Source of the DNA: Luteolibacter flavescens
GTDB taxonomy: Bacteria; Verrucomicrobiota; Verrucomicrobiia; Verrucomicrobiales; Akkermansiaceae
Direction: 5' to 3'
DNA: 64,000 nucleotides
Assembly: GCF_025950085.1 (NCBI RefSeq)
Contig: NZ_JAPDDS010000001.1
Span: forward strand, 496,001-560,000
This document shows positions 37,141 through 40,100 of this stretch, piece after piece. Each line of letters opens with the position of its first letter. The first letter of the stretch is position 1. The notes under the pieces are model-generated. The model searched no databases. It was not told the origin of the DNA and saw only the letters and a program-made list of their open reading frames with translations. The position numbers and the translations under genes were made by a program.

Positions 37141-40100
37141 GCTTCCCGCCGTCCATGGACGACTTCTTCGACCAGCCTGCCCCGGAAGCCCGCATCCGCC
37201 AATTGCGTGCGGAACTTGAGCGCCACAACCGGCTCTACTACACGGATGCCGCGCCAGAGATCTCGGATGCGGAATACGACAAGCTCTTCCGTGAGCTGGA
37301 GGGTCTGGAAGCGAAGCACCCCGAATACGACGACGAGAACTCCCCCACCCATCGCGTCGGTGGCGCGCCGCTCGATAGCTTCCAGCAAGTCCGGCACCTC
37401 GTGCCGATGCTGAGCATCGACGATGTCTTCGAGCTCAAGCCACCGGATGACGCCCCCGCGGACTTCGTCGCGGAAGCCGAGCTGATCGACTTCTACAAAC
37501 GGCTGCAAAAGAACCTCAGCCGCGAGCACATCGCCGTCACCGTCGAGCCGAAGATCGACGGCGTGGCAGTCTCGCTCGTCTATCGCGATGGCAAGCTCGC
37601 CTATGCCGCCACCCGCGGCGACGGCACCACCGGCGACGACATTACGAACAACGTGCGGACGATTCTTTCCGTCCCGCTGGAACTGAAGGTCCCTTCGCCC
37701 AAGGGGCTGGATGTTGACTTGGACCACCTCCTCTTCTACGATCCACCCAATGGCAGCAGCGGCTCAAGCACAGTTATTGGCGGAACGCTTGAAGACAGCC
37801 CGGCGGAAAGCCTCGGCCGCAAGCTCGCGTATGACCTCGAGCCAGATGATGGAGCAGATCTTTCGGAACGGCTCCGACGTGAAGCCGAATCCATTCTTGA
37901 ATGGGGAACTGAAGCTGGACGCCTCATCGACCCCGGCAAACTCCTCGCCCTCGTAGGCGATTGGAAGAAGCTAGGGGGCCAATCCGAGCATACTGTCTTC
38001 GCCGTCGAATCGTCGAAGCGGGTCATCAAGTTCACCCTTCCCCCAAACTTCGGGGCCCAAGGGGCAGAAATGTATTTGAAGAACATCAGTTCCTCAAACC
38101 GGTTGTTCGTCGATGACATCCGTTTCCATGGTGTCCTGCAAACCCACAAAGGGCCCGCATTTGTCATTTCTCAGCCTTTCGTAAAAGGTGACGAGCCGAC
38201 GTTAGAGGAAGTAGCCACATGGTTTGAATCCAATGGTTACCATTCTGTAGGACACAACCGTTGGCTGAATAAGGTCACGGGCACCGAGATCGCCGATGCC
38301 CACACTGGAAACCTTATCAAGACGGCCGACGGGGAGCTTGTTCCCATCGACCTCCAGGTGCTCACCGAAGGCGAAGGCGGGCTCATGAGCCTTGTTCTCT
38401 CATTGCCTCAATCCATCCCTTCCCTGCTTGAAGTCCGCGGCGAGATCTTCATGCCGAATGAAGCCTTTGCGGCAATGAATACGGAGCGCGACGAGGCGGG
38501 TCTGCCGACCTTCGTCAATCCGCGCAATGCGACCGCCGGCACGCTGAAGCAGCTCGATCCGAAGATGGTGGCGAATCGCCCGCTGGCCTTCCTCGCTCAC
38601 GGGCTGGGCGCATATGAGGGCCCGGAACTGCCGACCGAGCACGACTTCCACGCGCTTCTGGATGCGACCGGCATCCCGCGCAACCGTCCTGTCTTCATCG
38701 CGGAGTCCCTGGATGAGTTGTTAGACGCTGTTCGGTTGATCGACCGCGAGCGGCACCACCTCGGCTATGGCACGGATGGCGCCGTGGTGAAGGTGCTTGC
38801 CCGTGCCGAACGCGAGCGACTGGGCTACACCTCGCGCGCACCGCGTTGGGCAGCCGCTTACAAGTTCCTGCCCGAGCAGAAGGAGACGCTGCTCAAGGAC
38901 ATCACTGTCCAAGTCGGGCGCACCGGAGTCCTTACGCCCGTGGCGGAGCTCGAGCCGGTCTTCGTTTCCGGCACCACGGTATCGCGGGCCACGCTGCACA
39001 ATGAGGAGGAGATCCAGCGCAAGGACATCCGACTCGGCGACATCGTGATCATCGAGAAGGCAGGCGAGATCATCCCAGCGGTCGTGCGTGTCGTGATGGA
39101 GAAACGCTCCGCCGGTTCCAAGCAGTTCTCCTTGTTAGAACACATCAGCGGCCAGTGCCCTTCGTGCGGTGGACCGGTTTCCAAGGAAGAAGGCTTCGTG
39201 GCATGGCGCTGCACGAACTTCGAGTGTCCCGCCCAAGCGGTGTCGAAGATCCGCCAGTTCTCCTCCAGAAAGGCGCTCGACATCGAGGCCGTCGGCGGGA
39301 CCGTGGCCGAGGCACTGGTGAACCGCGGCCTGTGCCGCACGCCACTCGATCTCTTCACCCTCACGGCTGATAACCTTCCGTCGCTCAATCTGGGAACCGA
39401 CGAGGCTGCTCGCCGCTTCGGCGAGAAGAATGCCACGAAGGTGATGGAAGCCCTGCAAGCCGCGCGCGAGAAGCCGCTGGATCGCTGGCTCTTCGCCATG
39501 GGCATCCGCCAGGTGGGCGAATCCGCGGCGAAGGAGTTGGCAAGACTTCACGAATCGCTCCACGGCTTGGCCCATATCCAAGATGGCGAGGTGGTGTGCT
39601 CCTCCATCTTGGAAACCATCCAAGCCATCACCCGCAAGGAGGCGGAAGCAAAACTCATTTCTCCGCGCAACAAGGAGAACCCGCCAGCCGATGCCGAGGA
39701 CAAGAAGTCGCGGGAAAGCGCTTATAAGGCACTCAAGGCGGAGATCGACGAACTCAAGAAGCAGAACGCCGGATATGCGGTATCAGCCGATGTCGGGCAG
39801 GTCGTTGCGGAGTCTGTCCTCGCCTTCTTCGGCTCCGAGGGTGGCAAGCACGTGCTGGAACGACTGGCAGACCTCGACATCAATCCGAAGTCCGAGAACT
39901 ACCTGCCGAAGCTGGCAGAAGCCGACCTTTCCGAACTTCCCCTCGCTGGCAAGACCTTCGTCATCACCGGCACGCTCTCGAAGGATCGCGATGAGATGAA
40001 GCGTTTCCTCGAGTCCAAGGGAGCAAAGGTCTCCGGCTCCATCTCCGCGAAGACCGACTACTTACTCGCCGGTGACGGCGGAGGCTCGAAGCGCGATAAG

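Follow-up and report, generated by a model that had tools for sequence, protein, structure and literature searches.

What is a kinase-like domain doing in the middle of a DNA ligase? NAD+-dependent DNA ligase, LigA, belongs to the core machinery of replication and is a target for antibacterial drugs, and a kinase is not, to our knowledge, among its expected parts; in the window (the whole stretch of 64,000 nucleotides of Luteolibacter flavescens DNA analysed here), the frame of ligA nevertheless runs through one without interruption. The initial annotation of this locus took the domain for a mobile-element kinase that had been captured by an essential housekeeping ligase, either to regulate ligation by phosphorylation or to act in conflict with phage.

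The insert in LigA and its fold

The ligA gene (37137..40163, plus strand, as are all features below) is one open frame of 1008 codons with a GTG start. Its product is LigA above the NCBIfam cut-off (NF005932, 726.5 bits against a cut-off of 369; TIGR00575 is also exceeded), and Pfam finds the complete domain order of the enzyme: Nlig-Ia, adenylation, OB, zinc-finger, HHH, and BRCT. The adenylation domain, for which an uninterrupted course is usual but not defining, is broken after profile position ~99 and split into two stretches, with the Kinase-PolyVal family PF18762 between them. In the 11 LigA of this genus that lack the insert, the segment from VPLxL (or IPLxL) to PxLLEVRGE (or a close variant) is bridged by a loop of 4-10 residues; in the window protein, the corresponding motifs SVPLEL and PSLLEVRGE enclose an in-frame insert of ~244 residues (residues ~184-427; 37686..38417), of which ~234-240 are extra, bearing out the ~235 additional residues originally reported.

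The insert begins with a left linker (residues ~184-220; 37686..37796), whose length varies among aligned relatives, and continues with a helical lead-in and the kinase-like domain (residues 221-411; 37797..38369), delimited by the profile match, the models, and the fold comparison. A right linker follows (residues 412-429; 38370..38423), then the second half of the adenylation domain (residues 430-580; 38424..38876), recognized by PF01653 positions 97-253 at residues 426-580 and by comparison of the model with solved LigA. The kinase and ligase motifs named beforehand are all found in the translation, including Lys139 (PKIDG; codon at 37551..37553), which we take to be the adenylated lysine and which is invariant in 26 aligned LigA. 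The insert is poorer in G+C than its surroundings, as had been noted, but by much less than the 46% inside against 69% outside first estimated from small samples, which overstated the contrast: it has 55.6%, against 62.4% in the 1500 bases downstream (third codon positions, 62.3% against 78.0%), and the lowest 240-base stretch of the insert region, at 38020-38259, has 49.6%.

Of the nearest neighbors of ligA that were checked, one is a signal peptidase gene upstream, one a gene downstream for a protein with a cytochrome c-type domain, and one a frame that Pfam does not recognize. The genome has no other NAD+-dependent ligase among the genes found, but three further loci match the ATP-dependent ligase family PF01068 (G000:C4, C8, and C11), so that essentiality is not certain. 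A search of the same genome for a second copy of the kinase returned the single match in ligA and no other.

The insert alone (37686-38427) matches PF18762 with an E-value of 1e-12 (48.8 bits; cut-off 27), which is the family that had been predicted for it; in the whole protein, the match covers residues 281-406 (37977-38354) with an E-value of 1.1e-11. In passages of the paper that describes it, PF18762 is a serine/threonine/tyrosine-kinase-like domain of polyvalent proteins of phages and integrative conjugative elements (ICEs), whose activity is a prediction (Iyer et al., 2017, PMC5512222). The active-site set, with roles assigned by analogy, is present in full in the window protein: Lys298 (VIKF; 38028..38030), conserved in 45/45 LigA-borne domains, and Asp387 and Asn392 in the catalytic loop DAHTGN (38295..38312) and Asp405 in PIDL (38349..38351), each conserved in 44/45; Asp405 is a candidate for the metal-binding residue. 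The Glu and Gln particular to the family are assigned to Glu284 and Gln346, both of which are present in all 45 domains. The large C-terminal subdomain of kinases is absent; the Asp405 motif is followed by one short strand, the linker with its low-confidence stretch, and then the ligase. A reduced C-terminal lobe is also the mark of the minimal effector kinases NleH1, OspG, and HopBF1.

Modelled by itself from 44 aligned sequences, the domain reaches a mean pLDDT of 83.3 and a pTM of 0.78. Kinase-fold matches, on which the initial annotation had made its reading depend, were obtained; they are modest, the best being NleH1 (Z 8.9), OspG (Z 8.7), and HopBF1 (Z 7.9). All 50 PDB entries listed in the comparison read as kinase folds, among them 7cyr, 5yk1, 7p5z, 6j5t, and 4p69, which we take to be such. 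Among viral models, a large polyvalent protein matches best, at 31% identity, and in solved structures there are no sequence relatives of the domain up to an E-value of 10. With NleH1, OspG, and HopBF1 the domain shares its fold at 13-17% identity, and we claim no membership for it; these are secreted effectors, whereas the LigA kinase is an internal domain of a cytoplasmic enzyme.

In the model of the full-length protein (mean pLDDT 77.3, pTM 0.43), pLDDT falls below 50 at residues 186-192 and 205-219, ahead of the kinase, and at 414-425, behind it; the placement of kinase and ligase relative to each other cannot be read from it, since the pTM is low. Spanning the insert, the modelled adenylation domain superposes on solved LigA structures at Z ~21-26 (for 6krh, 240 residues at 2.4 A, Z 24.8). 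By the full-length prediction that the initial annotation had called for, the kinase is thus a separate domain on flexible linkers, with the ligase fold kept around it. Profile matches and models together show a kinase domain, predicted to fold separately, in the adenylation-domain loop of an otherwise ordinary LigA.

The domain resembles Kinase-PolyVal in its profile score, its active-site residues, the family Glu and Gln, and the missing C-terminal lobe. It differs in its setting: where members usually (though not strictly by definition) belong to the polyvalent proteins of phages or conjugative elements, or else stand alone, this one lies inside LigA, and the passages of PMC5512222 that treat the family mention no chromosomal housekeeping enzymes as hosts. 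They place it mainly in Verrucomicrobia-Chlamydia and Bacteroidetes, and describe such kinases in Verrucomicrobium spinosum with cassettes that may recombine (Iyer et al., PMC5512222). The closest relatives of the insert outside ligases are phage-like polyvalent proteins and stand-alone genes (52% identity for a polyvalent protein of G025, 51% for a stand-alone gene of G047), and two viral contigs carry relatives with 49% and 47% identity, the second being probably a prophage contig of G479. The insert has no match in PADLOC, in PHROGs, or in 50,697 phage records, so that a role in defence rests on the known company of the family and on the pattern of exchange described below.

Distribution, exchange, and selection

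A profile scan of genome contigs with 11 aligned domains yielded 49 loci, all titled Verrucomicrobiota, of which 39 are LigA; together with whole-genome searches, it brought the number of distinct LigA with an insert at the same site to 40, counting three that are near-identical (L161, L163, and L165). Comparison of relatives with and without the insert, as originally proposed, gives a patchy picture. In the same genus, the insert occurs in 5 of 18 genomes (G000, G006, G008, G009, and G010), 11 have an ordinary LigA, and two (G005 and G011) could not be judged; in a sister genus it is present in 38 of 73 and absent in 22, the other 13 not being judgeable (four without a match and nine with broken, partial, or odd matches). 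Across a phylum-wide sample, 20 of 387 genomes have any PF18762 match at an E-value of 1e-4. Two of the loci, L278 (G622) and L167, have an aberrant, longer C-terminal region before and in the BRCT part (LigA of 1147 residues).

An assembly or sequencing artefact, to which the lower G+C of the insert might be laid, has a negligible probability: independent assemblies refute it, the architecture being shared by the 40 distinct sequences and found in single-contig genomes (G010, G072, and G609). The assembly join that the initial annotation had wished to see excluded can be set aside, and its view of a mobile-element kinase taken up by a housekeeping ligase holds for family, frame, and relatives. 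It fails in scale, for the LigA-borne kinase is an old, recombining feature of many Verrucomicrobiales, rather than a new capture in one genome.

The history of the ligase and that of its kinase partly disagree. On a tree of the ligase core with the insert left out (64 rows), the label 'insert' requires nine changes, six of them forced by well-supported branches; G009, which has the insert, is the supported sister of G007, which lacks it. A single clade of carriers is rejected with a p-AU of 5e-21, under a simpler model and on 51 of the 64 rows, the other 13 being long-branched, short, or near-duplicates. Individual pairs are discordant along the gene. In L173/L183, third codon positions agree at 80-88% over the ~120 residues of ligase that follow the insert, up to the end of the L183 contig, and at 75-95% just before the insert, against 32-60% in the kinase, and the ligase has diverged again in the first 100 residues (62-72%). 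L167/L169 are near-identical across most of the ligase, and their differences lie in the initial part of the kinase and beyond residue 800. In L164/L178, the ligase has diverged (70% amino-acid identity) and the kinase is closer (84%), and in L178/L179 the kinase has a dS of 0.03 against 0.25 for the ligase. Other pairs show no such break, ligase and kinase being similarly diverged (L158/L159, L001/L005, L184/L190, and L185/L188). The discordant pairs are best explained by recombination, which would have swapped the kinase, or the ligase segments around it, between alleles; most carriers are metagenome-assembled genomes, in which chimeric contigs could mimic some of the exchange.

The dN/dS of the LigA-borne kinase is 0.06-0.32, against 0.01-0.27 in a downstream ligase stretch of up to 360 residues, for the 30 closest pairs listed, which share sequences and in some cases have dS near saturation; the LigA-borne domain is under purifying selection. 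The one departure from the catalytic set is the insert of G010 (L007/L070), in which three catalytic residues have changed together (GAHEGD and PIGL) and both domain and ligase are kept. This copy is likely a pseudokinase, and catalysis would be dispensable in G010, since the three residues are lost and the domain is retained.

In the other enzymes that carry the kinase, introduced below, the residues are likewise nearly always in place: in PurL, the lysine, the asparagine, and the second aspartate (D405) in 15/15 and the first (D387) in 14/15; the whole set in 8/8 copies in NspC, 4/4 in OppD, and 1/1 in GlgB. The copy in the oxoprolinase has Arg in place of Lys. The dN/dS of the kinases in PurL, NspC, and OppD is 0.03-0.35 in the pairs listed, many of which are at high dS. 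The active site thus appears to be selected for in nearly all carriers, yet it can be lost.

Pooled over the 40 LigA, the right linker has a period-7 identity of 0.50, against 0.24-0.26 in left linkers, kinase, and ligase, and in many relatives it contains tracts of 7-base repeats, in frame and built from different 7-mers in each genome (for example in L167, L161, and L159); the right linker of the window itself has no clear 7-base tract. The 90 bases after the PurL kinases have a period-7 identity of 0.40; those after NspC, OppD, polyvalent, and stand-alone kinases show no such signal (0.26-0.27). The tracts may have offered homology for insertion, or may merely accumulate in tolerant linkers. 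Just past the kinase, the PurL linker of L206 (G655) holds a REP-like palindrome together with 7-base repeats, as judged by eye. Around the window insert (37640-38450), there are no inverted and no direct terminal repeats of at least 14 nt, shorter or decayed copies being possible.

Related kinases in other enzymes

Related kinases were sought in other hosts within two overlapping sets: 97 relatives, of which 35 have a match at an E-value of 0.01, and 386 genomes of the order, of which at least 130 match at 1e-4. Domains of the same family lie in frame in the FGAM synthase PurL (L206; TIGR01857 above its cut-off), in the carboxynorspermidine decarboxylase NspC (L219; TIGR01047 above its cut-off), and in GlgB (L209; NF003811 above its cut-off), where the 5' end is lost at a contig edge and the residues ahead of the kinase are ones that we take to be GlgB. 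A further copy sits in a hydantoinase/5-oxoprolinase-type enzyme between PF05378 and PF01968 (L077), and OppD-type ATPases carry the domain as their C-terminal part, in L067 and L213 according to Pfam and in L271 and L272 as read from the sequence. Residues ~915-968 of L077 (G091) match many short places in the same genome and are apparently a dispersed small repeat, in frame.

For NspC, PurL, and the oxoprolinase, the empty site is clean in relatives. The NspC match is broken at query positions 297/542, with 91% identity in one flank and 96% in the other for the insert-free G508, and the insert lies within one continuous match in 4 of the 56 genomes searched. For PurL, the match is broken at ~620-625/867-885 and contains the insert in 6 of 59 genomes searched; for the oxoprolinase, it is broken at ~318/576 and contains the insert only in G091, among 37 genomes. 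The genus of the window contributes one PurL insert, in G011, classed by motif. Beside the NspC insert, one sequence has DIV to the left and DIL to the right; as a sign of target duplication, this was judged too weak. Other candidate hosts were rejected: in L207, the kinase occupies the stretch upstream of a Gfo/Idh/MocA oxidoreductase that is apparently a separate gene with its own start in the same frame, and in L042/L078, L083/L055, and L063 the N-terminal parts look by eye like non-coding or antisense read-through, these loci being classed by length as polyvalent or stand-alone. One kinase copy, in G093 (L101:2991-3868), extends over two overlapping frames and is apparently decaying.

A kinase tree was built from 151 of 165 rows, after thinning of near-identical sequences within each host class; the kinase set itself contains only domains that cover at least 60% of the model. 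It is a quick tree with long branches and without bootstrap, and its rows include loci from overlapping or related genomes, which are not independent. On this tree, the inserts of PurL, NspC, and OppD each form one side of a branch (support 93, 93, and 92). Those of LigA require two changes rather than one, as a long-branched polyvalent kinase of G025 (L064) falls among them. The GlgB copy adjoins NspC, and the oxoprolinase copy lies among stand-alone genes. The rest of the tree consists of stand-alone genes and of polyvalent proteins, some of which have MuF_C, LPD3, or LPD37 domains; one stand-alone family with frames of ~270-360 residues (L145-L149, L036, L275, and others), found in several genomes of the order and beyond, adjoins the PurL-borne kinases. 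From this arrangement it appears that kinases were taken up at least five times from a mobile or stand-alone pool.

Origin and role of the inserted kinases

Capture and retention of a kinase cassette are well supported. What the kinase does in LigA and the other hosts we infer from sequence, and the account that we favor, at slightly less than an even chance, is that housekeeping enzymes have repeatedly taken up a phage or ICE kinase cassette and retained it as an active effector, with the host as carrier and a role in conflict. A cassette from a prophage or integrative element would have entered ligA, probably once, in an ancestor within the order. Since then, homologous recombination through the conserved ligase sequence on either side would have carried it from one ligA allele to another and removed it from some; PurL, NspC (and GlgB), OppD, and the 5-oxoprolinase-type enzyme would have captured related cassettes separately. 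The host enzyme would serve mainly as a carrier, providing constant expression and, in LigA, a place at replicating or repaired DNA, from which the tethered kinase would phosphorylate proteins other than its host, a conflict with phages or rival elements being the most likely setting.

The main rival, which we consider somewhat unlikely, makes the kinase a regulator in cis that senses a nucleotide, a metabolite, or a partner and phosphorylates its own host enzyme to tune its activity. The host-specific groups on the kinase tree, the retention of catalytic residues under purifying selection, the way in which tethering favors action in cis, and the position of the LigA insert within the adenylation domain all agree with it; against it stand hosts from six unrelated families without a shared pathway, the placement in loops or at the C-terminus, the close relatives in which the same enzyme works without a kinase, and the swapping of kinase parts while the adjoining ligase parts stay alike. 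The idea that the kinase exists to regulate ligation is weakened, since unrelated enzymes appear to have made at least five separate captures, and a conflict role fits better than a fixed regulatory one because the exchange is cassette-like. Improbable, in our estimate, is a selfish passenger, tolerated but useless to the cell, that persists because its precise removal from a needed gene is rare. Its patchy presence, the insertion in loops of unrelated genes, the right linkers that are often full of 7-base repeats and thus mark a site that accepts extra DNA, and the broken copy in G010 would be expected of one, and there is precedent in the Rickettsia palindromic elements, which in passages of PMC10969869 are small DNA units that lie within the reading frames of unrelated metabolic genes and stay in the gene product. 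These elements, however, are described there as ~150 bp long with a conserved peptide, whereas the LigA insert is a folded, predicted competent domain of ~190 residues with no terminal repeats detected; of the terminal inverted repeats or palindrome and the target duplication expected of such elements, or of MITEs, it has none at a length of 14 nt or more. Moreover, nothing would oblige a pure passenger to preserve its active site, and the catalytic residues are present in 44-45 of the 45 LigA-borne domains and in nearly all others, at a kinase dN/dS near that of the ligase.

Inteins are in-frame inserts in conserved genes with a patchy distribution and host-gene-specific families, and the clean, in-frame, patchy insert in a housekeeping gene, with its host-specific families, recalls them; it is nevertheless very improbable that an intein- or intron-like element is removed here from protein or RNA to leave an ordinary LigA. 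The Hint family is absent among Pfam matches up to an E-value of 1, the junctions lack the invariant Cys/Ser/Thr or His-Asn, the linkers differ greatly in length, and Rfam finds no intron (two matches, to unrelated families, are below gathering scores). Without splicing domain or splice junctions, the insert is expected to stay in the mature protein.

The Kinase-PolyVal family and domain insertion as a process are already known. The titles and abstract openings among the literature matches listed, from a collection with few subscription journals and no bioRxiv, name no kinase inside LigA, PurL, NspC, GlgB, or OppD, and among the same matches one paper contains the word Kinase-PolyVal (PMC9758233). 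Nor do the matches listed mention that core enzymes have repeatedly taken up a phage-type kinase with its active site intact. It is conceivable, if doubtful as a whole, that the favored account extends to a class of 'rider' kinases of the Verrucomicrobiales: mobile, phage-derived, and catalytically competent domains in loops or tails of LigA, PurL, NspC, GlgB, OppD, and the 5-oxoprolinase type, which would form host-specific lineages, as inteins do, would never be removed from the host protein, would be swapped between alleles, and, carried by an enzyme that the cell needs, would act as a phosphorylation weapon or sensor against phage. Related phage-type kinases in six unrelated enzyme families, their active site mostly kept and their cassettes apparently swapped, suggest a route by which conflict enzymes may enter housekeeping proteins, and make it testable whether bacteria, or phages, use core enzymes to carry signalling domains.
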